Assembly (NCBI RefSeq): GCF_902826655.1
Contig: NZ_CADEFR010000035.1
Span: 1 to 38,862, forward strand
DNA: 38,862 bases
Reading direction: 5' to 3'
Source of the DNA: an uncultured Methylibium sp.
GTDB lineage: Bacteria; Pseudomonadota; Gammaproteobacteria; Burkholderiales; Burkholderiaceae_C
Part shown: positions 11,756 to 38,862 of the stretch, piece by piece
Numbering within the stretch: position 1 is the stretch's first letter
Layout: every line of letters begins with the position of its first letter
Position numbers and translations under genes: made by a program
The notes under the pieces: model-generated
What the model was told of the DNA's origin: nothing
What the model saw: only the letters and a program-made list of their open reading frames with translations
Database searches by the model: none

Positions 11756-11768
11756 GCGAGGAACGATC

Positions 11769-14927: not shown

Positions 14928-14992
14928 GATGACATCAGGCCCGGCGGCGCCGCCTGTTCCAGAGCGCCGCACCCTCGCAGGAGATCGAAGAG

Positions 14993-15367: not shown

Positions 15368-15446
15368 GCCACGGTTCGGGAATGCTTGGCGGCGCCGTCG
15401 TATGCATGGCAGGGCAAGGGCTGCCCGTCGCGAATCTGTCACGCCG

Positions 15447-15465
15447 TATCCTCTCCACTAGGATA
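15447..15465. promoter_or_regulatory. Inverted repeat ahead of the CsoR-family gene, probable operator
   Basis: TATCCT (15447-15452) and AGGATA (15460-15465) form a perfect 6-bp inverted repeat with a 7-base spacer, ending where the AGGA ribosome site (15465-15468) of the regulator begins. Position and symmetry fit an autoregulatory operator for the metal sensor encoded at 15476; binding is untested. Confidence 0.5.
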
Positions 15466-15475
15466 GGATATCGAT

Positions 15476-15754
15476 ATGGCGGAAACCGGACTCCACGTTT
15501 CGCATGACGCTGTCGCAAAACGCCTCAAGCGGGCCCATGGTCATTTGCAGAACGTGATCGACATGTTGTTGGAAGATCGTGCCTGTCTTGACGTGGCGCA
15601 GCAGTTGCATGCTGTCGAGCGTGCTGTCGCTGCGGCAAAGAAGCAACTGATTCATGACCACATCGATCATTGTCTCGACCACGCCCTGGGTGCACCCGCT
15701 ACGTCGTCGCGGCAGGCGCTGGGGGAGTTCAAACTCATCACCAAGTACCTTTGA
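15476..15754 (+). CDS. CsoR/RcnR-family metal-sensing transcriptional repressor
   Basis: 92 residues, all-helical family of copper, nickel/cobalt and formaldehyde sensors. The core KRLKRAHGHLQNVIDMLLED and CLDVAQQLHAVERAVAAAKK is typical. C37, H62 and C66 stand at the spacing (+25, +29) of the C-H-C ligands of CsoR and InrS; RcnR would have His in place of C66. Extra His residues (H7, H10, H21, H23) could complete a Ni or Co site, so Cu(I) and Ni(II)/Co(II) both remain possible. ATG 15476 follows AGGA by seven bases, and an inverted repeat overlaps this leader. It heads the second efflux operon on the same strand and probably represses it in metal-free cells. Confidence 0.85.
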   Translation: MAETGLHVSHDAVAKRLKRAHGHLQNVIDMLLEDRACLDVAQQLHAVERAVAAAKKQLIHDHIDHCLDHALGAPATSSRQALGEFKLITKYL

Positions 15755-15788
15755 GCCGACCGCGCTCACCACCTGACCCGCGTCCGCC

Positions 15789-16262
15789 ATGACACCGACA
15801 GCCCAGCCGCCCGAGCACCAGCGTCCCCGCGACGCCGCGGCGCTGCTGCGTCTGGTATTTTGTTGGCTGCTGGTGGCGGTGCTGGCTGTCGATCTGGTCA
15901 CTTCGCCGCTGCATGCGCACCGCCACGACGGAGAGTGGTCGGCCGGTGCAGGCTTGGTGGCGTCCGCAGAACATCCGAGCGATCTGTTCGGTGCAGACAG
16001 CGTCGGCGTCCCCACGCATGCCGACCCGGACGAGGGGCCTGGTATCTCGCATTCGATTTCGGCCTTGCGCAGTCCGACCGACGTGATGGTCGATGCGCAG
16101 CCCTCGGATGAATCTGCTCCTGCGGCGCACTGGTTCGTTCCGGACCAGTCGTCGCCGGGTCATGCCGTTGCATGGGTCTGGCCACCAGACGGGCACCGAG
16201 CGGGAGCTGATGCCTTCAAGAGCCTGCCGCCCCACGGCAGGGCGCCGCCTCTCCACGCCTGA
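15789..16262 (+). CDS. CzcI-like exported protein of the second efflux operon
   Basis: 157 residues. A Pro/Gln/Arg N-terminus is followed by one hydrophobic segment (LVFCWLLVAVLAVDLVTSPL) and then HAHRHDGEW, with scattered acidic and His residues and a Pro/Arg-rich C-terminus (LPPHGRAPPLHA). It has the same layout and operon position as the 117-residue protein at 8155: small, exported, His-containing, first structural gene before the efflux genes, followed by hairpins. I therefore call it CzcI-like with low certainty. It lies 34 bases after the CsoR-family gene. The ATG at 15789 has no strong ribosome site, so a start further in is possible. Confidence 0.55.
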   Translation: MTPTAQPPEHQRPRDAAALLRLVFCWLLVAVLAVDLVTSPLHAHRHDGEWSAGAGLVASAEHPSDLFGADSVGVPTHADPDEGPGISHSISALRSPTDVMVDAQPSDESAPAAHWFVPDQSSPGHAVAWVWPPDGHRAGADAFKSLPPHGRAPPLHA

Positions 16263-16269
16263 AGCCGCC

Positions 16270-16317
16270 GCAGCGCCGCCGGCGCTGCGCTAGCACTCGC
16301 CCTGCCATCGGGGCGAG
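16270..16317. terminator. Two adjacent GC hairpins between CzcI-like and adaptor genes
   Basis: GCAGCGCC (16270-16277) pairs with GGCGCTGC (16281-16288); CTCGCCC (16296-16302) pairs with GGGCGAG (16311-16317). They sit between the CzcI-like stop and the adaptor ribosome site, with no U-tract. They may attenuate or process the message. Confidence 0.45.
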
Positions 16318-16339
16318 GCCTTCTGCCCGTGGAGTTCCT

Positions 16340-17488
16340 ATGTCTGCCCACCTTTGTTCGCGCGGCGCCTTGCGCGCCGCTGTCTGCCTGTCCCTTGCTC
16401 TGAGCAACGCCGTGCTGGTGTCTGCCCTGGCCGCCGAACCCAATGCCGAGTTCGCCGTCTCCGCCGCGCAGATGAAGACGCTGGGCGTCACGCTGCTCAA
16501 ACTCGAACAACCCGCCGCCATCGCCGGCATCGCCTATGCCGCCAAGGTGACGTTGCCCCCGGGCCAGGAACAGATGGTCAGTGCGCCGGTAGCCGGTGTG
16601 GTGGATCAGTTGCTCGTCGGCGAGCAGCAGGCCGTCAAGGCCGGCCAGCCGCTGCTGCGGCTGAACAGCCCGCAGTTCGGCGAGATGCAGCTCAAGCTGC
16701 TCGAAGCCGCCAGCCGGGCCCGGTTGTCGCAGCAGACCTTGCAGCGCGAGAAGGCGCTGCTGACCGAAGGCATCATCCCCGAGCGGCGCGTGCAGGAGGC
16801 CGAGGCTGCGGCGCAGGACGATGCCGCGCGCCAGCGCCAGGCCGAGGCGGCGCTTCGGCTGGCGGGTATCGACGCAGGCTCGATCCGACGCATCGCCGCA
16901 GGTGGCACGGTGCAGGACGGCGTGGTGGTTCGGGCCCGTGCCGCCGGCGTGGTGCTGGGCGTCGACATCAAGCCCGGCCAGCGCGTGCAGGAGGCCGATG
17001 CACTGCTGCGCCTGGCCAGCCTGCAGACCTTGTGGCTGGACATCGCCATGCCGGCCGACCGCCAGCCGGCCACGCTGTTGAAGGACAACAAGGCCGCGGC
17101 GATCGAGATCGTGGGCCGCGATGCGGTGGCCATGCCCTTGTCCGTGGGCGCCATGGTCAGCGACAGCCAGACCGTGACCCTGCGTGCACGCGTCACGCGC
17201 GGCGCCGACCGGCTGCGCCCCGGCGAGGTGGTGCAGGCGCGCGTGCCGTTTGCGGCCAACGCTGCCGGCTGGGCGCTGCCGCTGCAGGCGCTGGCACGGC
17301 AGGACGACCAGGCTTACGTCTTCGTGCGCACCGACAAGGGCTTCATCGCCCGGCCGGTGAGCGTGGCATCGAGTGCCGGCGCTTCGGTGCAGGTCACCGG
17401 CGAGCTCAAGCCCGGACAGGAGGTGGCGACCGCCTCGGTCATCGCGCTGAAGGCGGCGTGGCAGGGCAAGAGCGGAGGTGACAAATGA
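16340..17488 (+). CDS. czcB: CzcB-like periplasmic adaptor protein
   Basis: 382 residues with GGAG seven bases before ATG 16340. A signal peptide (AAVCLSLALSNAVLVSALAA) leads to a lipoyl half (SAPVAGVVDQLLVGEQQAVKAGQPLLRL), an alpha-hairpin rich in Gln/Ala/Arg (RLSQQTLQREKALLTEGII through AQDDAARQRQAEAALRLAG), the second lipoyl half (VRARAAGVVLGVDIKPGQRV), and beta-barrel and membrane-proximal regions ending ALKAAWQGKSGGDK. It would bridge the channel (20943) and the pump (17529). Unlike the first operon's adaptor, it has no [11 protein letters not shown] motif and no His-rich extension. Confidence 0.85.
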   Translation: MSAHLCSRGALRAAVCLSLALSNAVLVSALAAEPNAEFAVSAAQMKTLGVTLLKLEQPAAIAGIAYAAKVTLPPGQEQMVSAPVAGVVDQLLVGEQQAVKAGQPLLRLNSPQFGEMQLKLLEAASRARLSQQTLQREKALLTEGIIPERRVQEAEAAAQDDAARQRQAEAALRLAGIDAGSIRRIAAGGTVQDGVVVRARAAGVVLGVDIKPGQRVQEADALLRLASLQTLWLDIAMPADRQPATLLKDNKAAAIEIVGRDAVAMPLSVGAMVSDSQTVTLRARVTRGADRLRPGEVVQARVPFAANAAGWALPLQALARQDDQAYVFVRTDKGFIARPVSVASSAGASVQVTGELKPGQEVATASVIALKAAWQGKSGGDK

Positions 17489-17528
17489 ACACCCTCCACA
17501 CGCCGCTTTCCACGACGGGAGCCCGGCC

Positions 17529-20500
17529 ATGCTGAACCGTCTCGTGCAATTCGCGCTCACGCAGCGCCTGTTCGTTCTGCTGGCTGCCGTGCTGCTGGCC
17601 GGTTTCGGCTGGTATGCATTCCGCACGCTGCCCATCGACGCCTTCCCCGACGTGTCGAGCACGCAGGTGAAGATCATCATGAAGGCGCCGGGCATGACCC
17701 CGGAGGAGATCGAGAGCCGCATCGCGGTGCCGATCGAGGTCGAGATGCTGGGCATCCCGAAGCAGCGCATCCTGCGCTCGGTGACGAAGTACGGCCTCGT
17801 CGATGTCACGGTCGACTTCCAGGACGGCACCGACCTGTACTGGGCGCGCCAGCAGGTGGCCGAGCGGCTGAACAACATCGTCGGCGACCTGCCTTCGGGC
17901 ATCACCGGCGGCATCGCGCCGATCACCACCCCTTTGGGCGAGATGTTCATGTTCACGATCGAGGCACCCCAGCTCACGCTGGAGGAGCGGCGCAGCCTGC
18001 TCGACTGGGTCATCCGCCCGGCGCTGCGAGCCGTGCCCGGCGTGGCCGATGTCAACGCCCTGGGCGGCAAGGTGCACAGTTTCGAGGTGTTGCCCGACCC
18101 GGCCAAGCTGCAGGCGCTGGGGCTGTCGATGGCGCAGATCAAGACCGCCGTCGAAGCCAACAACCGCAACGATGGCGCCGGCCGCCTCGGTGAGGGCGGC
18201 GAGGTGCTGTTGGTGCGCACCGAAGGCAGCATCAAGACGCAGGACGATCTGCGTGCGGTGGTGGTGGCGCGAAAGAACGGCACGGCCGTGCGCCTGGGCG
18301 ACGTGGCGCTGGTGCGAGACGGCAGCACCACGCGCTACGGCGTCGTCACCATGGATGGCAAGGCCGAGGCCGTGCAGGGCCTCGTGCTGGGCCTCGCCGG
18401 TGCCAACGCGCAGCAGGTGGTGAATGGCGTGAAAACAAAGATCACCGAGCTGCAACCCACGCTGCCGGCAGGCGTCACGCTGAAGGTCTTCTACGACCGC
18501 GCCTCGCTCGTCGAGAAGGCCGTGGGCACGGTCTCGAAGGCTCTGCTCGAGGCGACCCTGATCGTGCTGGTGCTGCTGGGTGCCTTTCTGGGCAATCTGC
18601 GCGCCGCCGTGGCCGTGGCGGTGGTGCTGCCGCTGGCGGCGCTGGGCACCTTCATCCTGATGCGGGGCTATGGCATGTCGGCCAACCTGATGAGCCTGGG
18701 TGGTCTGGCCATCGCGCTCGGCATGTTGGTGGACGCGGCCATCGTCGTGGTCGAGAACATCGTGCAGCACCTGGGCCGCGAGACCGCCGGCGGCAAGCTG
18801 CCGCGGCTGCATATCGTGCTGCGCGCAGTTCGCGAGGTGGCGGTGCCGGTGGCGGCGGGCGTGCTGATCATCGTGACCGTCTTCTTGCCACTGCTGACGC
18901 TGCAGGGCCTGGAGGGCAAGTACTTCGTGCCGGTGGCGCTGACCATCGTGTTCGCGCTGGCGAGTTCGTTGGTGCTGTCGCTGACGGTGATCCCGGTGCT
19001 GGCCTCGTTTCTGCTAGAGAAGGTGTCGCATGACGAACCCTGGCTGCCGCGCCAGTTGCTGCGCCTGTACGAACCGGTGCTCGCCTGGGCGCTGAAGCGG
19101 CAGACGGTGGTCTTCGTCGCGGCGGGGGCCCTGCTGGTGCTCGCGGCCGGCGTCTATACCCAGGTCGGCAAGACCTTCCTGCCCGAAATGGACGAAGGCG
19201 ACATCATCGTCGGCATCGAGAAGCTGCCATCGGTGAGCCTGGAAGAGACCGCGGCGCTGGACCTGATGGTTCACCAGACGCTGATGAAGAACATCCCCGA
19301 GATCACCGGCGTGGTGGCGCGCGCCGGTTCCGACGAGATCGGCCTCGACCCGATGGGGCTGAACCAGACCGACACCTTCCTGGTGCTGAAGCCCCGTGCG
19401 GAATGGCAGATGGCGAGCAAGGACGCGCTGATCGATCGCATCCGCGAGGTGCTCGACCAGATGCCCGGCATCAGCTACAGCTTCACGCAGCCGATCGATA
19501 TGCGCGTGTCGGAAATGATCATCGGGGTGCGCGGCGACCTTGCGATCAAGATCTTCGGCCCGGACCTCGCCAAGCTCAACGAGCTGGCGGCGCAGATCGA
19601 GGGGTTGATGAAGACGGTGGCGGGCAGCCAGGATGTCTACACGGTCGAGAACGACGGCGTGCAGTACCTGCGCGTGGTGGTGGACCGCCTCGCGGCCGGC
19701 CGCTACGGCCTCTCGGTCGAAGACGTGCAGGATGCGCTGCGCGTGCAGGTCGAGGGCCAGCGCGCCGGAACCGTGATCGACGGCAACCAGCGCATCCCCA
19801 TCGTGATCCGCGGGCCGGACATGGTCCGGCTCTCACCGGCCGATTTCGCCGCGCTGCGCATCGCCACGCCGGACGGGCAGAACGTGCCACTGGAGACCCT
19901 GGCCAAGCTCACCCGAGAAAGCGGCCCGGTGAAGATCGACCGCGAAATGGGCAGCCGCTACAGCGTGGTCATCGCCAACGTCACCGGGCGTGACCTGGTG
20001 GGCTTCGTCGACGAGGCCAAGGCCAAGGTCGGCGCCGAAGTGAAGCTGCCGACCGGCTACCGCATCAGCTGGGGCGGCCAGTTCGAGAACCAGCAGCGTG
20101 CTGCGGCGCGCCTGGCACTGGTAGTGCCGCTGGCGATCGGCTTCATATTCCTGATCCTGTTCTCCACCTTCGGCTCGGTCCGGCAGGCCTTGCTGGTGTT
20201 GAGCAACATCCCGTTCGCGCTGGTCGGCGGCATCGTGGCGCTTTGGGTCACAGGCGAATACCTGTCGGTGCCGGCCTCGGTGGGCTTCATCGCGCTGCTG
20301 GGCATCGCAGTGCTCAACGGCGTGGTGCTGGTGAGCTACTTCAACCAGTTGCACGCGGAGGGGCATGACCTGCTCATCAGCGTGACGCAGGGCGCGCGAA
20401 GGCGCTTGCGACCGGTGCTGATGACGGCTTCGATCACGGCTTTCGGCCTGATCCCGCTGCTGTTTGCCACCGGGCCGGGCTCGGAGATCCAGCGGCCGCT

Positions 20501-20651
20501 GGCCATCGTCGTGATCGGCGGCCTGATCACCGCGACCGCGCTGACGCTGATCCTGCTGCCCATCCTCTACCTGCGCTTTGCCCATCCGCGGCCGGGTTCG
20601 CGCGCGGCCGAGCGCGAAGCTGCCTTGCCCACGGAGGTCGCCCATGGCTGA
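17529..20651 (+). CDS. czcA: CzcA-family HME-RND heavy-metal efflux pump
   Basis: 1040 residues. I chose ATG 17529 because GGGAG lies six bases upstream and MLNRLVQFALTQRLFVLL is the standard pump N-terminus; the GTG at 17478 would add 17 residues overlapping the adaptor stop. Periplasmic signature LPIDAFPDVSSTQVKIIMKAPGMTPEEIE is present. Helix 4 reads ALGMLVDAAIVVVEN with D402 and E409 as likely proton/metal relay residues. The second half contains RAGSDEIGLDPMGLNQTDTF and SFTQPIDMRVSEMIIGVRGD, and helices around LGIAVLNGVVLVSY. The overall pattern is closest to the cation (Co/Zn/Cd/Ni) pumps rather than the copper pump at 1-1184, but substrate is inferred. Its end overlaps the DUF3240 start by eight bases. 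Confidence 0.93.
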   Translation: MLNRLVQFALTQRLFVLLAAVLLAGFGWYAFRTLPIDAFPDVSSTQVKIIMKAPGMTPEEIESRIAVPIEVEMLGIPKQRILRSVTKYGLVDVTVDFQDGTDLYWARQQVAERLNNIVGDLPSGITGGIAPITTPLGEMFMFTIEAPQLTLEERRSLLDWVIRPALRAVPGVADVNALGGKVHSFEVLPDPAKLQALGLSMAQIKTAVEANNRNDGAGRLGEGGEVLLVRTEGSIKTQDDLRAVVVARKNGTAVRLGDVALVRDGSTTRYGVVTMDGKAEAVQGLVLGLAGANAQQVVNGVKTKITELQPTLPAGVTLKVFYDRASLVEKAVGTVSKALLEATLIVLVLLGAFLGNLRAAVAVAVVLPLAALGTFILMRGYGMSANLMSLGGLAIALGMLVDAAIVVVENIVQHLGRETAGGKLPRLHIVLRAVREVAVPVAAGVLIIVTVFLPLLTLQGLEGKYFVPVALTIVFALASSLVLSLTVIPVLASFLLEKVSHDEPWLPRQLLRLYEPVLAWALKRQTVVFVAAGALLVLAAGVYTQVGKTFLPEMDEGDIIVGIEKLPSVSLEETAALDLMVHQTLMKNIPEITGVVARAGSDEIGLDPMGLNQTDTFLVLKPRAEWQMASKDALIDRIREVLDQMPGISYSFTQPIDMRVSEMIIGVRGDLAIKIFGPDLAKLNELAAQIEGLMKTVAGSQDVYTVENDGVQYLRVVVDRLAAGRYGLSVEDVQDALRVQVEGQRAGTVIDGNQRIPIVIRGPDMVRLSPADFAALRIATPDGQNVPLETLAKLTRESGPVKIDREMGSRYSVVIANVTGRDLVGFVDEAKAKVGAEVKLPTGYRISWGGQFENQQRAAARLALVVPLAIGFIFLILFSTFGSVRQALLVLSNIPFALVGGIVALWVTGEYLSVPASVGFIALLGIAVLNGVVLVSYFNQLHAEGHDLLISVTQGARRRLRPVLMTASITAFGLIPLLFATGPGSEIQRPLAIVVIGGLITATALTLILLPILYLRFAHPRPGSRAAEREAALPTEVAHG

Positions 20652-20946
20652 CTTTTGCCTGACCCTGATCTGCCCGCCGACGGTGGAGGAGAAGCTGCTC
20701 GACGTGTTGCTGGCGCAGGCCGGCGGCGAGGTCTTCACCAGCACGCCGACCCACAGCCACGGCAGTGGCCAGCAGCGGCTCAGCGCCACCGAGCAGGTGA
20801 TGGGCCGCAGCCGAGCGATCCAGATCAACGTGCTGCTGACCAACGAGGAACTCGGGCAGCTGCGCGACCTGCTGCAACGCGACTTTGCCGGCACCGGTGT
20901 TCGTTACTGGGCCACGCCGCTGGCCTTCGAAGGGGAGTTCGCATGA
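20644..20946 (+). CDS. DUF3240 family protein
   Basis: 100 residues, start ATG 20644 inside the pump's last codons. The size and pattern (CLTLICPPTVEEKLLDVLL, then TPTHSHGSGQQRLSATEQVMGRSRAIQINVLL) fit DUF3240, a small cytoplasmic family with a ferredoxin-like/PII-like fold expectation that travels with HME-RND operons. The THSHG stretch could bind metal. The function is not established; a cytoplasmic modulator of the pump is a reasonable inference from its position between pump and channel genes. Its stop overlaps the next start (ATGA). Confidence 0.75.
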   Translation: MADFCLTLICPPTVEEKLLDVLLAQAGGEVFTSTPTHSHGSGQQRLSATEQVMGRSRAIQINVLLTNEELGQLRDLLQRDFAGTGVRYWATPLAFEGEFA

Positions 20947-22184
20947 AGCAACAGGGACTGGCGGGGATCGTGGCCCTGCTGATCGGCACGGCGGCTGCCG
21001 CACAAGGCGTGGCGACACCGAGAGACTTGCCCTCGACCGAACTGGCCGTGGCCTGGATCGACAAGGATCCGGCCGTGATCGAGGCGCGGCGCGCCTTGGC
21101 TGCCGCCGGCCACGGCGCCGCCGTGCTGGCCGCCGGCCCGTATGAGTGGACGGCCAACGCCAGCACGCAGCGGCGCAACGTGGGCGGTGTCGGCAACACC
21201 ACCGAGTGGTCGGTGGGGGTCGAGCGCGGCATCCGCATTGGCGGCAAGGCCGGGCTCGACCGCCAACTGGGCGATGCCGATATCGAGACCGGCCGTGCCC
21301 GGGTGGGCGACGCGCGTCGCGAGGTGGCGCGCGCCTTGTCGGATCTGTGGCTCGACTTGCAGGCAGCCCATGGCGCCCAAGCGCTGCTGAAGGAACAACT
21401 GTCGTTTGTCGAGTCCAACCTGGCCGCCGTCGACAAGCGCAAACGTGCCGGCGACGCCTCGGCGCTGGACCTCAGCATCGCGCAGTCCGACCTGGCCGAG
21501 GTGCGGCGCCAGGCCAGCCAGGCCGATTCTGCGCTGGCCAAGGCGCGCGCCAAGTTGAAGCTGCGCTTCCCGGAGGCCTCGCTGGCGCCGGGAGCGTTCT
21601 CTGATCCGACCGATCCGCCATGGCCCGAGGCCCGCTGGCGCGAGCGCATTCTTTCTGGAGCCGGCCCGCTTAAAGTGGCCGAAGCCCAGCTGCGCAGGGC
21701 CGAGCTGGCCGCCTCGCGGACCCGGGCCGACAAGGTGGCGGATCCGACCGTGGGCGTGTTCACTTCGAACGAAGCCTTTCGCAACGAGCGAGTGGTCGGC
21801 ATCAGCGTCAGCATCCCCTTCGGCGGCACGGCGCGTGAGCGGCGGCTGCAACAGTCGCTGCAAGAGGTGGAGGTGGCACGCGCGGCGCTCGACCGCACCC
21901 GCCAAGGCATCGAGATCCAGATCGCCGAGACCTTTTCGGACGCCGTAGGCGGCGTCGAGCGCTGGCGCATCGCCGAGCGGGGCGCCGAGGCCGCGCGCGA
22001 GAGCGCCCGCCTGACCCAACGCGCCTACACCCTTGGCGAGGTGGACCTGCAATCGCTGCTGCTCGTGCGCCGGCAGTCCCTGGACGCCCTGCGCGCCGCG
22101 GGTGAGGCGCGCGCGGAGGCCTTGCGGTGGAACTATCGCCTGCTGATCGACGCCCAACTGGTCTGGGATCTGGCGAATGACTGA
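20943..22184 (+). CDS. czcC: CzcC-like TolC-family outer membrane efflux protein
   Basis: 413 residues; ATG 20943 overlaps the DUF3240 stop, so the longer frame back to 20655 is not used. A signal peptide (LAGIVALLIGTAAAAQG) precedes the TolC-family repeats: ARRALAAAGHGAAVLAAGPYEW, LAAVDKRKRAGDASALDLSIAQSDLAEVRR and, in the second half, RRAELAASRTRADKVADPTVGVFTSNE and AYTLGEVDLQSLLLVRRQSLDAL. The protein would form the outer-membrane duct for the pump at 17529. The two channel proteins of the window are clearly different in sequence, so the operons are not recent duplicates of each other. Confidence 0.85.
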   Translation: MKQQGLAGIVALLIGTAAAAQGVATPRDLPSTELAVAWIDKDPAVIEARRALAAAGHGAAVLAAGPYEWTANASTQRRNVGGVGNTTEWSVGVERGIRIGGKAGLDRQLGDADIETGRARVGDARREVARALSDLWLDLQAAHGAQALLKEQLSFVESNLAAVDKRKRAGDASALDLSIAQSDLAEVRRQASQADSALAKARAKLKLRFPEASLAPGAFSDPTDPPWPEARWRERILSGAGPLKVAEAQLRRAELAASRTRADKVADPTVGVFTSNEAFRNERVVGISVSIPFGGTARERRLQQSLQEVEVARAALDRTRQGIEIQIAETFSDAVGGVERWRIAERGAEAARESARLTQRAYTLGEVDLQSLLLVRRQSLDALRAAGEARAEALRWNYRLLIDAQLVWDLAND

Positions 22185-29439: not shown

Positions 29440-29652
29440 TCAACCGCAGCACGACCTGCTTGCCTGGACCGGAGGACACTTCACCGAGCCGTAGGAGCAG
29501 AACACGCAGCAGTCGCCCGGCCGTGGCTTCAGGAGCGTCTTGCAGGCCACGCATTGGTAGAAGAACTGGCAGGCGTCGACCGGCATGGTCTCGTGCGCAA
29601 CGTGGCCGCACTGCGGGCACGTCAGCGCGGACTCGACGACGAGGGTGGCCAT
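29440..29652 (-). CDS. Cys-rich GDCCVFCSYG protein
   Basis: 70 residues with 12 Cys. A zinc-ribbon-like start (LTCPQCGHVAHETMP) is followed by FFYQCVACKTLLKPRPGDCC and then VFCSYGSVKCPPVQASRSCC. The G-D-C-C-x-F-C-S-Y-G core is a motif I know from small proteins linked to mercury and other metal loci in proteobacteria. It would bind thiophilic metal in the cytoplasm, perhaps accepting Hg(II) from MerT. It starts four bases after the merP-like stop, so it is cotranscribed. Function inferred. Confidence 0.8.
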   Translation of the reverse strand: MATLVVESALTCPQCGHVAHETMPVDACQFFYQCVACKTLLKPRPGDCCVFCSYGSVKCPPVQASRSCCG

Positions 29653-30367: not shown

Positions 30368-30766
30368 GTGGCGTCTGAACTGTCAATCGGGCGGCTGGCC
30401 GCCGAGGCTGGTGTCAACGTGGAGACGATCCGCTACTACCAGCGGCGCGGCTTGCTCGCGGAGCCGGAAAGGCCGCTCAACGGGCAGCGCCGCTACCCGG
30501 CCGAACTCACCAAGCACGTACGCTTCATCAAGCGCGCGCAGGTGCTCGGTTTTACGCTCGAGGAGATTGCAGGCCTGCTGCGGCTCGAAGAGGCGCGCGC
30601 CTGCGCCGAAACGCGAGAGCTGGCGGACCGCAAGCTGCAAGTCATCGACAGCAAGCTGGCCGACCTCAAGGCCATGCGCAAGGCGCTCGCCAAGCTGGTG
30701 CGCCAGTGCGATGCGCCCGACAGCAAAAGCTGCTGCCCCATCATTCACGCGCTGGCGGCGGACTGA
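30368..30766 (+). CDS. merR: MerR mercury-responsive regulator
   Basis: 132 residues; GTG 30368 with AAGGGG upstream. HTH: SIGRLAAEAGVNVETIRYYQRRGLL. The sensor Cys are C79, C114 and C123, with exactly the 35- and 9-residue spacings of the Hg(II)-binding Cys of Tn501 MerR (82, 117, 126); C122 is adjacent. The mer operator lies between it and divergent merT. It would repress without Hg and activate merT onward by DNA untwisting when Hg(II) bridges the dimer. Confidence 0.94.
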   Translation: MASELSIGRLAAEAGVNVETIRYYQRRGLLAEPERPLNGQRRYPAELTKHVRFIKRAQVLGFTLEEIAGLLRLEEARACAETRELADRKLQVIDSKLADLKAMRKALAKLVRQCDAPDSKSCCPIIHALAAD

Positions 30767-30799: not shown

Positions 30800-30879
30800 G
30801 CCGATGTGAGGAGAGACCCTCCCCGCCGTAGCGGGGAGGGTCCAAAGCCGCTGTCAGACGGCGAGCTTCGCGTCCTCGG
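30800..30879. repeat. Left direct repeat flanking the helicase/ATPase island
   Basis: Aligns with 38111-38184: shared GCCGATGT start, a GC-rich hairpin, CAAAG-Y-CGCTGTCAG-R-CGGCGAGCTTCG-Y-GTC-Y-TCGG at the end. The pairing ends differ in loop and stem bases, but the last ~35 bases differ at only four positions. Confidence 0.75.
30815..30842. terminator. Terminator hairpin in left repeat
   Basis: ACCCTCCCCGC (30816-30826) pairs perfectly with GCGGGGAGGGT (30831-30841) around CGTA, extended by one G-C pair. It lies 49 bases after the merR stop and probably ends that transcript. Confidence 0.7.
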
Positions 30880-31068
30880 ATCGGCCGGGCTGCGCGATTC
30901 GTCGGGCAGTGCGGTGAGGTGATCGCGTCGCGAGGTGGCTCACCGTCTGGCATCGGCCAGACACTGCCGATCACGAGCAACGGGCTCGCGAAAGTTCGCT
31001 GCGCCGCAAGCGAATGGAAGCTCCTTGCCGGACAGGGCAAAGCCTTGGCGCTTGCATCGAGAAGCCAC

Positions 31069-34000
31069 CTACGCTTCCTCCCCCGATAGCAAGCAAGCTC
31101 GTACGTCAGCCAAGTGCATCTGGGTGAAGTAGATGGTGGTCGCAACACCACCCAACTCAATCTCGACCTCGCTGCCAGCCACCGTCGCAATCAGTTCTTC
31201 CATGCTGTCCCTCTGCGCATTTGCATGGCGATATGCCGCAGCGTGATTGGGACATAGCGCCAAGTAGGCTTCGCGGTATCGCTTCTTCGCATCCGCAACG
31301 ACCTCGACCGCTTCGAAGTAGAAGGCCCCCGAAGCAAGCTTGAACGGCATCTTGGTCTTACAGACCTGGCAAATCAGATCTCCTCGGCTGTCCCGATACT
31401 GGTCCTCCAGGTACTGCTTGCTCGCAATCTTCGCGGCATCCGCTCCTAGTTGCACGGAGCGTGCTCGGACCTCAGCCTCCTTTGCCGGCGTGAGGCGGGC
31501 TTGTTCTCCGACTCGTGCGGCGCGGAGGTCGGCGTTTCGTACAGGACGTTCAGGCAGCTCCACCTGCTCATCAGCGGTCTCTCTGGCGCGGTCGAGCACT
31601 CTCACCTGCTCGTCCTTCGGAAGCTTTGAGAACTCGAGCGCCCGCTGATAGTCCTCGTCGCTTTCAAATCCAAGCTCCGCGCGCTTAGCGGCCCGTGCAA
31701 TCGACTCGGCGCTACGCTTTCGCTCATCCGAGCCGAACTCGACCAGCTGCAGCCACTGATACGAAAGGTCGTAGGGAAACCCTTCCGGAAGCTTGGCAGT
31801 CGTCGCCTGCTTCGGAGTCACAAACGTGCCATCTCTTTGCGGCACCCACGCGGAGTCACGCAGCCAGCAGACGAGTTGGGAGTTCGCATAGTGCGAACCG
31901 TGGCTGGCGTTTCTTTGGAATCGAGCCTTCAGCACCTGCGACGGTGCCTTGCTCATCGCACTCCAGACAAGTCGAGAGCCTTCCACCGTCTTCAGACGCA
32001 GCATGTCGCCCGTGCGCTTCGTCACTGCAAAATCTCGATTGACTGGTGAGGAGTACCGTTCACCTCCCACTTGAAGGAGATAGCCGTACTTCTCGTTCCT
32101 GCTGCAGTCAACCTCCAGCCACAGACCCTGAAAGTCCTGCTCGACTCCCACGAACAGAGCGAACTTGGCAAACTTGTCGAGCGAGAGTCCTTGGTCCTTG
32201 TACCAGGCGCTTAGCGGCCAACGGCGGTCACCTTCGTCCTTGATGGACTCGTAGAACCCTCGAAGGCCGGTGCTCAAGATGGGTGCGTCGATGTAGGCGT
32301 GTCCTGCCTGGGCCCATTCGAACTCAGGCGCGTCGACACGGAAGAGGAATGCTGACTCGAACAGGCTTCGGCTGTGCGGGTTTCGCTCGGCAAAGGCCAT
32401 CAGGCGCTTAAGGTCGGAGAGGTACACCTTGTCAGAGGGAGCGTCTCCATCAGGCCCGTACCGAGCCTTCAGCAGCAGCGTCACCTCCTCGAGTTCTCCG
32501 GGCACCTTGACGCCAATGCTGACGAGAAACTTCCGCGCGTCCGACTGCTGACCCTTCCTCGTCCCGACCGTGAGAATCTCTTCGTCGATACGAGGCAACG
32601 GATCCTTCTTGCTTGGAACGCCTGTCTGGAAGAAGGCGTCCTTGGCAAGCCGGTAGGACCCATCGACGGTTCGCACGATTTGTGCCTCGTGCAGGTCGAA
32701 TACGTCCCCTTCGTCATCGCAGTACTTGCCGAGGATGGCGTAGAGCGCTTGGTGCCACTCCAGCGGCTTCGCCGCCATCCATTTCAAGACGAGCGGGTCC
32801 ACACGTGCACCGGTCCAATAGCGAGAACTCACACGAGCTCGAGACTCAAAGAAGTCCTTGAGGTCTTCGGCATCCCAACTTGCTATCCCAAGGCTCGCCA
32901 AGAACTTGTCCTGCGCCTGGCTTTTTTGCGGCGCCGTGATTGCCCAAGTGGGCTGGTCGCTCCGGCCTGTGACGAATGCCAAGTCCTCATCAGACAGCAA
33001 CGCCTTGAGCGACGCTCGCGCTTGGCAGAGACGTGACGCTGGCGCGTACCTGCCCGCGAATGTTGGCACGAGCGCCTGTGCCTTCATCTCCGCGACGACG
33101 GCCGCCCGGATGACCTTGTAGCGCTCCGGCAGAGAGTCGTCGTTGTTCGGGAGTACTGCCAAGAAGTCGCCGCTCAGCAGACCGAGGTCCTTGATGACGT
33201 GCAGCGCCCTGGCACTGAGGCGTGCCAGCTGTTCAAACAGCGGTGTGTTCTCGGGAGTGTTTTTGATGCTTGCGCGACTGAGTTCTGGAACGAAGGGTGC
33301 GTGCAGGTGATAGCGAAGCCCCGACACCTCCTTGTCCGCCGGAAAGAACACGGACACCATTCCTCGTTCCGACGGGATGATGCGTAGCTGGTCGGCGATT
33401 GGCTTCTTGGGGTCAAAGGACTTCTGTTCGCCACGGAAGGCGAGTTCGAAGGCGATGGCGACGGCCTGCTTCTCGATGCCAGCTATCGGGGCCGAGAACT
33501 GATGGACGTCGGAGACGGTGGCCGCGAACCGCAGCCATTGGGAGCTCTGTACATCGCGACCCTCGACCTGCTTGAGTACCTCGATGTGCGATGGCGAGTA
33601 CTCATGGCGAAGTACCGCGCCTTCAACACCCTCTACTCGCCACCGGATGTACTGGAGGCTTCGAAGGAAGAGCAGCGTGGTCTCAGAGAGTTGCTGCAGC
33701 CCGGCCTTCACCTCGGCATAAGCTGTCTCTTTGTTCTTCTTCGGATTGTTGAAAGGGAACTCGAAGCGCGTTCGCTTCCCAAGTGCTTCCCGCCCTGGCA
33801 CCGGCACGGGCAGAAAGCGCCGCTCAATCTGGAAGCTGTACTTCGACGAGTAGACGGTTGGGCTGCTCGTGTAGGTATAGACGGACTTGAAGCCGACGCC
33901 GAACTTGCCGATGCGGTCGGGGTCATCCTTCTTGGTGCTGTTGTTGATGCCTGTGATGGCGTCAATGTCGTCCAGGTTGAACTGCCGTTCTCCGTTGTGC

Positions 34001-34200
34001 TCGAACACGCATTTCGAATCGGAGAGCTCGAACATCACCTCCGTCGCACCTGTGTCCTCGGCGTTCTGAAGGAGTTCGTAGATGAAGTGCGCCTCGTCCG
34101 GATAGAAGTCGTCGAAGATGTCGAGGTTGATGCCCTTGTTCTTGGCAAGCGCGGCCAAGAACTCCCGCCGCTGGGCGGCAAGTTCCTCCAGGCTGGTCAC
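31069..34200 (-). CDS. Sacsin/Hsp90-type GHKL ATPase with C-terminal zinc-finger-like module
   Basis: 1043 residues, GTG start at 34200 overlapping the upstream stop (GTGA). The N-terminal ~200 residues are a GHKL (Hsp90/sacsin) ATPase: HFIYELLQNAEDTGATEVMF with E42, N46 and D49, then DIDAITGINNSTK and the lid glycines GKFGVGFKSVYTY (98-110). A long middle region (about 250-850) has no motif I recognise. The last ~100 residues contain C944-x2-C947 and C983-x2-H986 (ICQVCKTKMPF; LALCPNHAAAYRH), an HNH or treble-clef-like zinc site in which the central catalytic His-His is not evident. Proteins of this architecture lie near helicases and in defence islands. It is the second gene of a two-gene operon with the HEPN-SNF2 gene. 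Probable role: ATP-dependent sensor or effector in anti-phage defence (inference). Confidence 0.85.
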   Translation of the reverse strand: MTSLEELAAQRREFLAALAKNKGINLDIFDDFYPDEAHFIYELLQNAEDTGATEVMFELSDSKCVFEHNGERQFNLDDIDAITGINNSTKKDDPDRIGKFGVGFKSVYTYTSSPTVYSSKYSFQIERRFLPVPVPGREALGKRTRFEFPFNNPKKNKETAYAEVKAGLQQLSETTLLFLRSLQYIRWRVEGVEGAVLRHEYSPSHIEVLKQVEGRDVQSSQWLRFAATVSDVHQFSAPIAGIEKQAVAIAFELAFRGEQKSFDPKKPIADQLRIIPSERGMVSVFFPADKEVSGLRYHLHAPFVPELSRASIKNTPENTPLFEQLARLSARALHVIKDLGLLSGDFLAVLPNNDDSLPERYKVIRAAVVAEMKAQALVPTFAGRYAPASRLCQARASLKALLSDEDLAFVTGRSDQPTWAITAPQKSQAQDKFLASLGIASWDAEDLKDFFESRARVSSRYWTGARVDPLVLKWMAAKPLEWHQALYAILGKYCDDEGDVFDLHEAQIVRTVDGSYRLAKDAFFQTGVPSKKDPLPRIDEEILTVGTRKGQQSDARKFLVSIGVKVPGELEEVTLLLKARYGPDGDAPSDKVYLSDLKRLMAFAERNPHSRSLFESAFLFRVDAPEFEWAQAGHAYIDAPILSTGLRGFYESIKDEGDRRWPLSAWYKDQGLSLDKFAKFALFVGVEQDFQGLWLEVDCSRNEKYGYLLQVGGERYSSPVNRDFAVTKRTGDMLRLKTVEGSRLVWSAMSKAPSQVLKARFQRNASHGSHYANSQLVCWLRDSAWVPQRDGTFVTPKQATTAKLPEGFPYDLSYQWLQLVEFGSDERKRSAESIARAAKRAELGFESDEDYQRALEFSKLPKDEQVRVLDRARETADEQVELPERPVRNADLRAARVGEQARLTPAKEAEVRARSVQLGADAAKIASKQYLEDQYRDSRGDLICQVCKTKMPFKLASGAFYFEAVEVVADAKKRYREAYLALCPNHAAAYRHANAQRDSMEELIATVAGSEVEIELGGVATTIYFTQMHLADVRACLLSGEEA

Positions 34201-37200
34201 TGTGCCCTCCGCACTTCAAGGACGCCGAACACCGCGGGCGTCGCCTTGATGTCTCCGCTCTCGGCAGCCTTTCTGAGCGCAGCCACGCGAACGTCAAAGT
34301 CCACCTGAGCGCGCTCCAACTCCGCCTGCTTCATCACGCGAATCTTGTCGTTCGTGGCCCGTCCGATTTGCTCCTCCAGAAGGGCACGTCGCGCGGTGAA
34401 GCTCGCAGTCAGACTCTGGATTCGAACCCCGACAAGCTGGCGGTTGTCTTCTGCGTGCTGCGTGGACTCCCGCAGCCACAACTGGTGGTGTACCTTGTCC
34501 AGGTCATCCCACACCTGTTGACCTGGAAGTTCCAATCCTGACGCGTCAACGGCAGACGGAAGCACCTCCAGCAACGCGTCAGCTACCGCCGGGCTCTCGG
34601 TCACGGGAATCAGGTCCTCGTCGCGCTTAGCCCCTTGTCTGGCCCAACGATAGAGAGCGAAGGGATGGACACCTTCCGGCAGCACCTCGTTGACGACGGA
34701 TAGACGTACGGCAATAGCGTCGGCTTCCTGGAGAAACGCTGCGGCCTGGCGAAGCAGCGGATGACCCAAGGAAAGTAGTGCGGCGCTAGCGTTCTCGACC
34801 GCCGCCTCCTGCTCGAAGGTTACCGAGAGGGTTGGAGATGTTCCCTTTAGCCATCGCTCCCACGCCCTGTGCATGGGGTCCGTGGAACGAGGAAGCTTGC
34901 GGAAGTCCTCCAACAGAGTCGCCCGCGCTTCTTGGCCCAACCGCAACGTCTTCAGAGCCTTTTCTCCGAGAAGGTAGTCCTGCTCCTTCCCTAGCCGACG
35001 AGCCAAGTACGAACCGACCGCCAAGCCGAGGGCCCGGGGCTCTAGCCAATGGCTACGCGACCTCGCCAGCCGCTGCTCCCAAGACGCAGCAGCGAGGTTG
35101 AGTCCGAACAGTTCGCCCTGACGCTCCTCCAAGCGCTGTTCCTCCTCAATCTGCCGAATTTTGTTGTCCGACAGTTGGAGAAGGCGCTGCTGTCGCTCCT
35201 CATCGCTGAGCGTGAACGACTCGGCTATGTTGTGCAGTTCCTTGGTGATTTCGCCGAGGATTTCCTCGTTGCCGCCGATGGCGTGCTGGAAGACGCCAAT
35301 ACGACTGAGACAGCGGTCAAAAATCTCCGCGTCTATCGTGCCTGGGGTTATGAAGTTGAAGATGCCGACTGCCTCGCTGGCTTGCCCATAGCGGTCAATC
35401 CGGCCGATGCGCTGCTCGACGCGCATTGGATTCCACGGAAGGTCAAAGTTGACAAGGCAGTCGCAGAACTGGAAGTCGAGGCCTTCGCAGCCAACTTCGG
35501 ACGAGAGCAGGACGTCAAGAGCTTCCTCACTCTCCTTGGGCAACGCGAAGCGCCGTCGAAGTGCCGACCGCTCCTCATCGGGTATCCCGCCATGGACGAG
35601 GCCGAACCGAACGTTGGCCGCCGTCAACTTGCCCACCAAGTAGCGGAGCGTGTGGCGGAAGGTGCTAAAGACCAGCACCTTGTTGCGCGGCATGGCCAGC
35701 TTGTCAGCCACCACCTTCATGAACGCCGCGGCCTTCGGGTCATTGGGGTCCAAGCTACTTGCTCGCCGAAGCAGCGACTCGATGTCCCCGCGAATTTGCT
35801 CAACAAAGTCGAACTCGCGCTCAACTCCGTCGTCTGGGTCATCGGCCTCTTCAAGGCTCGCGAGCTTGCCCCGCAGAATGTCCCGCAGCGCGGGTGCCAG
35901 ACCATAGAGACTGCTTGCGGCCTGCCGGCTCACTGTCGACATCATGAACTTGACGTTCAGGTTCCCATGGAGCCTTGCGAGGATTCGGGCGATGACGCTC
36001 AACAGGTCGTCGTGGAGTTCCTTCTGGCTTGGGGTGAACTCTGTGCTGACCGTCTCAGCTTTCCGAGTCGTGAACTCACCGATGTCTCGGCGCCTGGTGC
36101 GGTTGATGAGTGAACTGAAGGTGAACAGGCCCTCCAATGAGTAGATGGTCTTGATACGCGACGCGCCGTCCTCGGCGCCCTCAGCCAGACCATCGTAGAT
36201 GTGCTGAAAGCCAGGGTTGATGGCCAGCACCTCGCGGCCCCACGTCGTTGCAGCCACCTCTCGCAGTTGCTCCCTGACCAGCTCTGACCAACCAGTCTCG
36301 CCTCGGCGGCACGCCTGAATCGCGGCGTTGATGAACTGATTGGGCTCGGCCATCTGCTCAAAGCTGGCCGGGTCGATGATGACGTCGGGACGCAGGACGT
36401 TAAGCAGCGTGTACAGGTCGTCCCGGCCGAGCTGAACTGGCGTCGCCGAAAGGAACACCACGGCCTCCGCGTTGTCAGCAAAGTACCGAACCGCCTGATG
36501 AAGAAACGTCTCGCTGTTCCGGATGTGGTGAGCTTCGTCGACGATGACGAGGTCGAACTTTGGCGGAGGGTCTAGCTCCAGCAGGCCTGGGTCCCTTGCC
36601 TTGCCTCTGCCTGACCTACCAAAGAGCAGGTCGTTGTCGAACAGTGACGTGGGCAGAATTGCCCTCTCGTACTGCGCGGGCCACTCTCCGCCAAGATGTG
36701 TCTCCTTGATGCAGTGTCGGAGCAACGAGCCATCGAGATGCACGAAGTGCTCGTCGAAGCGCTTCATCTCCAGTTCCCATTTGCGCTCGGTGACAAGCGC
36801 CTTGGGGCAGATGATGAGCACCGACTTGATGTCGCTTCGTGCCTGCAGTTCCTTGAGGATGAGGCCGGCCTCGATGGTCTTGCCGACGCCCACCTCGTCA
36901 GCGACCAGCAGACGGGGTCGGTCTGCTCGTATGAGCTTGAACACCGGTCGGTACTGATACGGGACGAAGCGAACTCGACCGGAGTTCAAGGAGTACAGCG
37001 CCGACGCGGACGGCGAAGACAGTTGGGCGGCACTAAGCAGAGACGACAACTCGGCTGCCGTCAACGTCTTGCGGTCGGCCTCAGGCTCCTCTAGGGCCTG
37101 AAGCTGGCTTTCGTAGTACACCTGCCGCGCGCCGTTCTCGAAGACGCGGTACCGCGTCTCTACGGCCCCACCTGCCAGGACCTCGAGCACCGGGAACACC

Positions 37201-37778
37201 GCCGCCGGGTTCGACCGAAGACAAAGCAACTGACCCACAGCGAACTTGCTCGCGGACGCTGGAGCCGGTGCGGAGGCAGTCGCTGGCCTCGGAGCCGCGG
37301 CTTCGCTTGCTCCCACGGCAGGCGCGCCCCGAGGCTCGAGGTTTGGAGCGAGCCTACCCAGGGTCTCCGCCTTGAACGCCGAGAGGCGCTCCATCAGGTC
37401 CGGGCTCGCTCCCACGACGGCGAGCAGCCGCTCCAGGGTGTCCGCGTCGCGGAAGGCGTCTGTCGGCCCCACCCCTCCGGCTGGTGCATGTGCCCAGCGG
37501 TTCCGAGCGCTTTGCAGTTCCTTCACCCAGTTGCGGGCTTCCCGCGGCAGCGGGTTCACAGCGGCCAACTCGTTCCAGTTCTGGTCGAGGACACGTAGCA
37601 CTGCCGCCAGGTCGAGGCCACTCAGGCTCTGAATTCGCCGGTCCTCTGCAAAGCGCTGCTGTTGGAAGGTCAGTCGGTCGACGACGTGCTCGCGCCACCA
37701 GTTCGCGCTGAGGCCCGGCAGCTTCGCCGCGAGCCATTTCGCAATGACGCCCGCAGACGCCTGAAGGAGTTCGTTCAT
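34197..37778 (-). CDS. Swt1-type HEPN / SNF2 (RapA-like) helicase
   Basis: 1193 residues from ATG 37778, preceded by a G-rich AGGGGG; a further 19 residues to 37835 look like leader. Domains in order: an N-terminal Swt1-type HEPN (about 1-125; WWREHVVDRLTFQQQRF, then SARNRWAH with R92-x4-H97); an Ala/Pro linker; a RapA-like region (KFAVGQLLCLRSNP); SNF2 lobe 1 with ADEVGVGKT (293-301) and VDEAHHIRN (DEAH 414-417), SATPVQLGRDDLY; lobe 2 with VFSTFRHTLRYLVGKL, SSEVGCEGLDFQFC and VEQRIGRIDRYGQ; then about 350 residues of coiled coil. It should translocate on double-stranded DNA. The HEPN could act as an RNase toxin or as a docking domain. Codon use is less GC-rich than in neighbouring operons, suggesting acquisition. 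Confidence 0.9.
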   Translation of the reverse strand: MNELLQASAGVIAKWLAAKLPGLSANWWREHVVDRLTFQQQRFAEDRRIQSLSGLDLAAVLRVLDQNWNELAAVNPLPREARNWVKELQSARNRWAHAPAGGVGPTDAFRDADTLERLLAVVGASPDLMERLSAFKAETLGRLAPNLEPRGAPAVGASEAAAPRPATASAPAPASASKFAVGQLLCLRSNPAAVFPVLEVLAGGAVETRYRVFENGARQVYYESQLQALEEPEADRKTLTAAELSSLLSAAQLSSPSASALYSLNSGRVRFVPYQYRPVFKLIRADRPRLLVADEVGVGKTIEAGLILKELQARSDIKSVLIICPKALVTERKWELEMKRFDEHFVHLDGSLLRHCIKETHLGGEWPAQYERAILPTSLFDNDLLFGRSGRGKARDPGLLELDPPPKFDLVIVDEAHHIRNSETFLHQAVRYFADNAEAVVFLSATPVQLGRDDLYTLLNVLRPDVIIDPASFEQMAEPNQFINAAIQACRRGETGWSELVREQLREVAATTWGREVLAINPGFQHIYDGLAEGAEDGASRIKTIYSLEGLFTFSSLINRTRRRDIGEFTTRKAETVSTEFTPSQKELHDDLLSVIARILARLHGNLNVKFMMSTVSRQAASSLYGLAPALRDILRGKLASLEEADDPDDGVEREFDFVEQIRGDIESLLRRASSLDPNDPKAAAFMKVVADKLAMPRNKVLVFSTFRHTLRYLVGKLTAANVRFGLVHGGIPDEERSALRRRFALPKESEEALDVLLSSEVGCEGLDFQFCDCLVNFDLPWNPMRVEQRIGRIDRYGQASEAVGIFNFITPGTIDAEIFDRCLSRIGVFQHAIGGNEEILGEITKELHNIAESFTLSDEERQQRLLQLSDNKIRQIEEEQRLEERQGELFGLNLAAASWEQRLARSRSHWLEPRALGLAVGSYLARRLGKEQDYLLGEKALKTLRLGQEARATLLEDFRKLPRSTDPMHRAWERWLKGTSPTLSVTFEQEAAVENASAALLSLGHPLLRQAAAFLQEADAIAVRLSVVNEVLPEGVHPFALYRWARQGAKRDEDLIPVTESPAVADALLEVLPSAVDASGLELPGQQVWDDLDKVHHQLWLRESTQHAEDNRQLVGVRIQSLTASFTARRALLEEQIGRATNDKIRVMKQAELERAQVDFDVRVAALRKAAESGDIKATPAVFGVLEVRRAQ

Positions 37779-38158
37779 CCCGCCCCCTGCCCGCAAGCCC
37801 GTTCCCAACTGGTCCAACCTGGGGGCAGCGGGCAAGGGTAGCGGGTCTCAATGTGTTGACCACGACCCTGTTCGTACCGCTAGGGTAGCAAGCATTTGGC
37901 CGGGTGCGACCACGGAGAGGGTTGCAGGAGACCAATGGCGTGATCCATAAGGCGGTTCAGGCGCACGGCTACGGAAAGCTTGAAGCGAAGTAGCCTGAAT
38001 TGCCCAACGGCTGCTTTTCCGTCCAATCTTGGCGCCCGAAGTGCTGGATCGGGTCGTTGTGAACCGGCCAACGAACCGCACCTGAAGGAGTGCACGAAGG
38101 TCCCCCCTGAGCCGATGTAGAGGGCCCCTCCCGGGTGGGGGAGGGGCCAAAGTCGCTG
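37779..38158. other. Intergenic stretch right of the helicase/ATPase island
   Basis: Must hold the promoter of the helicase/ATPase operon (minus strand), but I cannot pick a convincing -35/-10 pair. Also holds the right direct repeat and terminator. Short open frames in 37848-38150 look non-coding. Confidence 0.5.
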
Positions 38159-38184
38159 TCAGGCGGCGAGCTTCGTGTCTTCGG
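38111..38184. repeat. Right direct repeat flanking the helicase/ATPase island
   Basis: Partner of 30800-30879. It spans the terminator and the last codons of the gene ending at 38159. Confidence 0.75.
38123..38148. terminator. Terminator hairpin in right repeat
   Basis: GGCCCCTCCC (38123-38132) pairs with GGGAGGGGCC (38139-38148) around GGGTGG, just downstream of the minus-strand stop at 38159. It probably terminates that large gene. Confidence 0.7.
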
Positions 38185-38862
38185 CATCCATGCGGCTGGC
38201 GCCCGCCGAGTCCTGGTCGAGGTCGAGTTGGCGCTGCAGACGGCGCTGCCGCGCGAGGAGGTCCGCCAGGCGACCCTCATGCTCGAACGGGCGTTCGAGC
38301 TCGATCCTCAGATCGGCCAGGCGCTTGCCGCGCACCGCCAACTGCTGGCGTGTCGCATCGCGCTCCTTGGGCACCGAGGCCAGCACCGCGAACAGCGCCG
38401 CCACCAGGCCCTGGGCCGTCCGGTACACGTCGGCGTCGTACCGGCAGTGACCTTCGAGGTAGATGCCGGGAACGCCGTCGTCGCGGCTGGCGCGCAGTCC
38501 GAGCTTGAAGCCGGCGAACCGGCCGACGTGCTGCTCGACGCTGCCTTGCGCGGCTTTTGCCGCACGCACCAGCTGCCGCAGGCCTTCGCCGACCGCCTCC
38601 GAGCCGACCAGCACCTGGCCAGCCAGTTCAACGCGCATGTCGTTGACCGACACCGGCTCGGCACGCTCGCAGTCCTGCTCCAGCAACGCCAGCTTGCGCT
38701 CCAGCGACTCGATCAGCATCGGCAACCGCGCCACCTCGCTCTCGTTGGCATAGCGCTGGTTGCGCCACACCGAGAACAGCGTCGACAGCTTGGTCACCTC
38801 GGCATCCACGCCGGCCTTCTCGATCACGAGCGGGTTGCCCGAGGCCAGCGCCTTCACTTCGG
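38159..38862 (-). CDS. C-terminal part of a large helicase/methylase-like protein (DarB/strawberry-notch type)
   Basis: The frame is open to the window edge; the first codons visible read EVKALASGNPLVIEKAGVDAEV, so the apparent GTG start is internal. About 234 residues are present. The A-S-G-N-P-x-V-x-E-K-x-G-x-D-x-E-V pattern followed by a coiled coil (TKLSTLFSVWRNQRYANESEVARL) is what I know from the end of very large DEAD/DEAH helicase-methylase proteins on conjugative elements and phage P1 (DarB-like antirestriction). The rest is helical and ends DAEDTKLAA. The family call is from memory of the pattern and needs the upstream part for confirmation. Its stop and last codons lie in the right direct repeat. 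Confidence 0.65.
   Translation of the reverse strand, partial: EVKALASGNPLVIEKAGVDAEVTKLSTLFSVWRNQRYANESEVARLPMLIESLERKLALLEQDCERAEPVSVNDMRVELAGQVLVGSEAVGEGLRQLVRAAKAAQGSVEQHVGRFAGFKLGLRASRDDGVPGIYLEGHCRYDADVYRTAQGLVAALFAVLASVPKERDATRQQLAVRGKRLADLRIELERPFEHEGRLADLLARQRRLQRQLDLDQDSAGASRMDAEDTKLAA

Follow-up and report, generated by a model that had tools for sequence, protein, structure and literature searches.

The stretch of DNA analysed here (the window) is a 38,862-nucleotide contig of an uncultured Methylibium sp. and is part of a 4.2-Mb draft genome in 142 contigs. Two large minus-strand genes lie at its right end (Table 1). One encodes a protein with an N-terminal HEPN domain, a Tudor-like barrel and a RapA-like SWI2/SNF2 motor, and the other a sacsin-type GHKL ATPase. 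In the first-pass annotation of this sequence, the two were proposed as a candidate two-gene defence system, coupled by a GTGA overlap and matching no system known by name. The motor and sacsin genes are a conserved unit, and relatives of the pair are found among known defence genes.

Table 1. Features of the gene pair and its surroundings, in window coordinates
Feature	Position	Strand	Remarks
HEPN-Tudor-SNF2 (RapA-like) protein	34197-37778	-	1193 aa (amino acids), ATG at 37778
Swt1-type HEPN domain, residues 1-143	37350-37778	-	PF18731; all helical in model (helices 2-143)
HEPN R-x4-H motif, residues 92-97	37488-37505	-	
Tudor-like small beta barrel, residues 179-250	37029-37244	-	strands 184-228 in model
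SWI2/SNF2 motor, residues 251-850	35229-37028	-	Pfam SNF2 and Helicase_C
DEAH box, residues 414-417	36528-36539	-	present, conserved
C-terminal RapA-like region, residues 905-1193	34200-35066	-	long helices between strands of terminal sheet
Sacsin-type GHKL ATPase protein	31069-34200	-	1043 aa, GTG start; PF25794 and NF047352 over cut-off
GHKL ATPase and transducer-like region, residues 20-441	32878-34143	-	N46 and G box intact
C-terminal McrA-like HNH-fold module	31069-31410	-	zinc ligands C944, C947, C983, H986; catalytic positions lost
Stop/start overlap GTGA, 4 nt (nucleotides)	34197-34200	-	
Left direct repeat	30833-30879	+	copy of plasmid helicase gene tail
Right direct repeat	38138-38184	+	native tail of helicase gene
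Large plasmid helicase-related gene, C-terminal part	38159-38857	-	cut by window end
MerR regulator	30368-30766	+	neighbour on the other side of the pair

The two proteins

RapA is an SNF2 protein that recycles RNA polymerase. The body of the motor protein (residues 177-1191) aligns structurally with RapA and has a RapA-like domain order and fold, which agrees with the RapA-like motor and DEAH box described before. Among the 50 structure entries listed, the four of RapA were the only ones aligned past residue 964, from the motor through the tail. These comparisons were made against the PDB by VIA-align, with rows mainly over residues 254-833 of the motor and 20-441 of its sacsin partner, whose middle (about 442-930) was hardly covered. 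For the motor protein, no NCBIfam model was over its cut-off. The name Tudor is taken from the RapA/BrxHII architecture (PMC12839542). A longer form of the motor gene, starting with TTG at 37835, was rejected and the ATG preferred, since the alignment of relatives begins at the same MN.

The N-terminal domain matched HEPN_Swt1 (PF18731) with 51.6 bits against a cut-off of 27.5 (E 1.3e-13). R92 and H97, already reported as intact, fit the R-x4-6-H RNase motif of the HEPN family. In the alignment of 92 rows, 83 have a letter at these positions; R92 is kept in 82 of them, N93 in 80 and H97 in 81. RNase activity of this domain is likely, as a prediction from the near-invariant motif.

The second protein matched SACS (PF25794) with 62.1 bits (cut-off 32.8) and NF047352 with 87.7 bits (cut-off 50); its only NCBIfam match over cut-off is a domain model. 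The GHKL motifs (N and G box) are kept in 65 of 65 rows. This protein had been described as an ATPase that ends in a zinc-binding module. The ATPase, its N46 and the zinc ligands were all recovered, but the module is a degenerate McrA-type HNH fold. By profile, the tail matches EcoKMcrA (6ghc, E 1.2e-9) and shares its HNH fold and zinc ligands, whereas the His pair is lost. The four zinc ligands are retained in 29 of 32 tail rows, and 30 of the 32 have no His in either catalytic column (His occurs in 2/32); the window protein carries V965 and E966 there. Pfam gave weak matches only on these HNH-like tails. An active HNH nuclease as effector was rejected, since the relation to McrA is clear and the catalytic His columns are lost. 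Besides HEPN, no intact nuclease was recognised in either protein by Pfam, profile search or the tail columns.

Variants of the sacsin protein were also observed. In the tails of L024, L057 and L103, three of the four zinc ligands are lost, with the first Cys and the final His kept; zinc thus seems dispensable in some lineages. Longer sacsin partners (about 1500-1570 aa) with a similar zinc tail occur in L023, L042, L058, L095 and L096, and the ATPase domain of the L023 partner lies in mid-chain (residues 719-847). The zinc module may also exist outside the pair: on a Proteus mirabilis plasmid, a hypothetical gene (L019, 4189-6741) that adjoins restriction genes has it with 33% identity over about 108 residues.

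Conservation, spread and surroundings of the pair

Alignment of the helicase against a one-genome-per-species collection confirmed at least 544 relatives, and the best 80 together with six loci on viral contigs gave 86 loci. These searches used the helicase only and never the sacsin protein. A locus was testable (n = 76) when its helicase gene had been called and was followed by 600 nt or more; nine of the 86 had under 600 nt, and in L056 the helicase open reading frame (ORF) was not called, though a sacsin match exists. A sacsin match on the same strand, starting within 1.6 kb, was present in 74 of the 76 testable loci. The remaining two are L022, with a sacsin piece on the opposite strand, and L077, with 681 nt to the locus end. 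The 4-nt overlap is exact in 31 of 77 called pairs, and the sacsin ORF starts at most 40 nt past the helicase stop in 69 of 77. Moreover, helicase and sacsin distances correlate (r = 0.57, 64 rows, 0 of 999 permutations as high); this test used sacsin proteins longer than 800 aa, with L018 omitted by choice and L056 lacking a helicase row.

The HEPN domain is absent from L014, L015, L018, L054, L087, L097, L098 and L105, of which the last five lie in genome contigs. Because several lineages are without HEPN, the conserved core is motor plus sacsin, and HEPN is a common extra. A tblastn search with eight HEPN queries gave no separate HEPN gene in L054, L087, L097, L098, L100 and L105; it was also empty in L056, L076 and L103, where it is uninformative as a contig edge lies at or close to the start of these loci. 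On this search, a split HEPN gene in HEPN-less loci was rejected (L014, L015 and L018 were outside the tblastn set). On a quick tree, the three-way label of HEPN, none or other changes eight times; the tree omitted six of the 92 rows, which were short or broken, and labelled L103, at a contig edge, as without HEPN. In the first-pass annotation the HEPN-helicase was a part of the system. The fusion is indeed present, but HEPN is optional and the fusion had already appeared in the literature: a Swt1-like HEPN fused to an SWI2/SNF2 ATPase is WQE_15321, tabulated by Anantharaman et al. 2013 (PMC3710099). Its description, an active Swt1-type HEPN with an SWI2/SNF2 ATPase, is of the same kind of fusion, and the likeness is by description only; the listing, in the part of that article consulted, mentions no sacsin partner, pair conservation or system.

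Some HEPN-less loci carry small additional genes. In the rhizobial L014 (8288-8818) and L015 (8274-8828), an overlapping upstream gene encodes a protein of about 180 aa whose family was not recognised; read by eye only, this small gene is unlike HEPN. Small extra ORFs stand between helicase and sacsin genes in L087 (8901-9509), L098 (13063-13347) and L105 (13072-13263), of a Latescibacterota/Acidobacteriota group.

The distribution of the pair is wide, patchy and rare. Its hosts include Pseudomonadota, Thermodesulfobacteriota, Planctomycetota, Verrucomicrobiota and Cloacimonadota, many of them metagenome bins, and further Latescibacterota, Nitrospirota, Actinomycetota, Bacillota and one Methanoculleus archaeon. 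A phylum-wide draw held it in 5 of 398 genomes, the window's own included (4/397 others), and a draw from the family gave a full-length match in 2 of 399, again with its own. In three of 72,556 plasmid records, at least 80% of the helicase is found at a single place; none of the three has the HEPN part, and each also carries the sacsin gene. Among 50,697 phage-collection records one reaches this 80%, L016, which is perhaps not a phage because it is an unverified faecal scaffold that carries BREX genes. Near-copies in different families (L043 in Paracoccaceae, L044 in Roseobacteraceae) and on viral contigs (L020, L024) point to transfer of the pair. No clear link with tRNA genes as integration sites was seen in the 31 loci scanned, nine of which have a tRNA gene somewhere within 20-25 kb.

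Flanks of the relatives hold far more defence genes than random ORFs. We sampled 100 of 373 near-flank ORFs from 51 loci, with 98 ORFs of 20 random stretches as control (E up to 1e-20); the flank ORFs matched 45 PADLOC families and the control ORFs one, the counts being of families, not proteins, with 25 of the 45 listed. Representatives of recurrent flank clusters include a type I restriction gene, PDC-S68, a Mokosh-like RNase_H_2-helicase, a type III methyltransferase (L025), an HKD-SNF2 protein, an Mrr-type nuclease and a DndH-like ATPase, and Gabija-like genes are also among the flanks. Several defence genes are very close to the pair. PglZ lies 22 nt before it in L016, with PglX pieces upstream, and a type III Res 37 nt ahead of it in L053. 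A gene of an RNase_H_2-AAA helicase cluster (typed on L039) follows it by 2-11 nt in L095 and L015. In L025, and by cluster in L017, the genes before it encode a type III methyltransferase and a large helicase, Res-like by eye, and in L082 a gene of the PglZ cluster is 8.6 kb upstream. A fixed third component was rejected, as no flank cluster occurs in more than six loci.

The window as a probable plasmid-like element

GC content is 0.59-0.61 across 31001-37000 and 0.64-0.73 across 1-31000, and the pair is bracketed by direct repeats with an ungapped core of 47 bp, 89% identical; lower GC and flanking repeats had both been noted before. A gapped alignment of the repeats extends over 80 columns (79% identity, E 3e-15). 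The repeats contain the 3′ tail and hairpin of the neighbouring plasmid helicase gene, which makes insertion of the pair at this 3′ end plausible. That gene is separated from the motor gene by 380 nt, and its product is 42% identical to a Piscinibacter plasmid helicase-related protein. A promoter scan gave no sigma-70-like site, which is uninformative at such GC.

A DUF1173 gene (1749-2957) and the helicase tail resemble adjoining genes of a Piscinibacter gummiphilus plasmid, and between them sit two RND efflux pumps. Hence the window looks like a plasmid or integrative-element backbone with cargo between these two genes, and the pair is probably part of that cargo. The pumps (1052 and 1057 aa, 8647-22184), with outer-membrane and membrane-fusion proteins, probably serve metal resistance. 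A small protein with a GDCCxxC motif, whose relatives are annotated GDCCVxC (seleno)protein, is encoded near the MerR regulator (29440-29640, minus strand).

Proposed mechanism and its alternatives

We give about an even chance to a reading, built on sequence and modelled folds, in which the pair is an anti-invader operon: an ATP-driven sensor would trigger the HEPN RNase, lead to abortive infection and thereby, as predicted, protect from phages. The RapA-like motor, with its double-stranded-DNA translocase fold, and the sacsin-type ATPase would work together as the sensor, and the signal may be foreign nucleic acid, or replication or transcription of the invader. The degenerate HNH/McrA tail would bind rather than cut. 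Once triggered, the HEPN on the motor would work as an RNase that needs no metal, with cellular RNA, invader RNA or both as substrate, and growth would halt before the invader multiplies. RNA cleavage is a likely output because the HEPN motif is near-invariant and no other intact nuclease was recognised, and a sensor or gate is likely because both ATPases have nucleic-acid-binding folds. Inference enters this scheme at several points: that the two proteins form a physical complex, what the trigger is, in which order the events follow, what the tail does, that RNA is cleaved and that phages are held off.

The proposal of a defence system was strengthened by conservation of the pair as a unit and by its defence-rich flanks; the pair was found neither in housekeeping contexts only nor as a match to a characterised system. 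Several observations weigh against the anti-invader reading. The neighbours that Pfam recognises in the window itself are efflux, MerR and plasmid genes; none of the window ORFs scanned is a defence neighbour by Pfam, and PADLOC, whose scores come without cut-offs, covered three proteins there (the motor, the sacsin protein and the 38159 gene). The flank counts rest on a greedy ORF caller, a sample of 100/373 and a control from the window's own phylum, and the helicase-sacsin distance correlation does not remove shared ancestry. Moreover, HEPN-less lineages keep the pair (L087, L098, L105, L097, L014, L015, L054), so HEPN as sole effector cannot hold for the whole family.

This retention of the pair without HEPN also favours a different reading, possible though on balance unlikely, in which motor and sacsin protein are themselves the effector. 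They would strip, block or remodel invader DNA, or deliver it to neighbouring nucleases (restriction-modification, BREX, RNaseH-like helicases), with HEPN as a back-up suicide device. That the pair comes after PglZ (L016) or a type III Res (L053), and ahead of the RNase_H_2-AAA helicase-cluster gene in L095 and L015, agrees with this, as does DrmD being the top-scoring helicase family, with BrxHII and DpdE matched too. However, no third gene is common to the loci, and members that have the HEPN show almost no change in its active site. In a further, doubtful reading, that of a transcription-targeted immune system, the RapA-like motor might engage RNA polymerase on invader DNA and bring HEPN to nascent transcripts, with the Hsp90-like sacsin ATPase licensing the step through a degenerate HNH tail that would read DNA.

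It is improbable that the pair is a divergent form of a named system, namely DISARM (through DrmD), Tiamat (through TmtA) or an accessory of BREX. DrmD was the best PADLOC match of the motor (385 bits, cut-off not given), and by profile DrmD and BREX BrxHII come closest among defence helicases; for BrxHII, a RapA-like architecture is described, with Tudor, an inactive restriction endonuclease domain and a terminal alpha+beta domain (PMC12839542). However, the NCBIfam DrmD equivalog gave 323.2 bits against a cut-off of 610 and its b form 131.4 against 950. DrmB (DUF1998/MZB, PF09369) had no match in the 142 contigs of the own draft genome, while a control search found it in 8 of 14 genomes. DISARM membership was rejected on these two grounds. 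RapA membership was likewise rejected on the NCBIfam cut-off (188.5 against 576 bits), despite the RapA-like fold. Compared with RapA, and equally with DrmD and BrxHII, the window system adds the HEPN domain and the sacsin partner. TmtA of Tiamat shares a sacsin-like GHKL ATPase N-terminus, and its best PADLOC match (168 bits, score limit not shown) covers residues 6-414 against 48-449 of the 1486 profile positions; matches of the two best profiles stop at residues 414-573 of 1043. In contrast to Tiamat, the window system is a two-gene unit with an McrA-like HNH tail on the ATPase. A link with BREX is suggested by PglZ in L016 and the PglZ-cluster gene in L082, and the PADLOC matches listed for the motor (25 of 40), the sacsin protein and the 38159 gene include neither PglZ nor BrxC. 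In addition, six more remote members of the helicase family (28-32% identity) lack both sacsin and HEPN within about 1.5 kb. No named-system NCBIfam cut-off was passed, which supports the earlier view that the pair matches no named system.

In the open-access articles (PubMed Central) examined, a scope that leaves most subscription papers and preprints outside, the pair is not described, and the consulted parts of PMC3710099, PMC12458937, PMC12839542, PMC12137116, PMC11090510, PMC10853773, PMC13092281 and PMC8195603 do not contain it; a DefensePredictor figure legend names an HATPase domain with no detail. The HEPN-SNF2 fusion is already known, and we rate its pairing with sacsin as a new variant of HEPN/helicase conflict systems.

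A host system for RapA-like transcription or RNA quality control, without a role in defence, is quite improbable: among the structure entries listed, only those of RapA align past residue 964 of the motor protein, but the pair is rare and patchy in both genome draws and its flanks are rich in defence genes. Known toxin-antitoxin pairs do not resemble this one, in which two separate ATPases sit on proteins of about 1200 and 1050 aa. Although HEPN domains are common toxins (PMC3710099) and the operon here is probably cargo of a plasmid-like element, an addiction module of plasmid or island, with an HEPN RNase toxin restrained by the sacsin protein, is very improbable, as HEPN-less members keep the sacsin gene.

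The pair is compact, widespread and unnamed in the 2023 PADLOC release. If the anti-invader reading is correct, it would add a combination of HEPN RNase, RapA-like motor and sacsin ATPase to prokaryotic immunity. It also raises the question of whether, in defence helicases such as DrmD and BrxHII, the RapA-like body has DNA as its sole target or works on RNA polymerase. A second question is the role of a sacsin-type ATPase beside an HEPN RNase, a pairing shared with human sacsin. Human sacsin, an ataxia protein, couples sacsin ATPases with an HEPN domain, whereas the HEPN of the window is Swt1-type and on a separate chain, and the window protein has, by Pfam, one SACS domain and no DnaJ. If the doubtful transcription-targeted version proved true, the pair would parallel animal sacsin in bacteria and may offer a simple model for the partnership of HEPN and sacsin.

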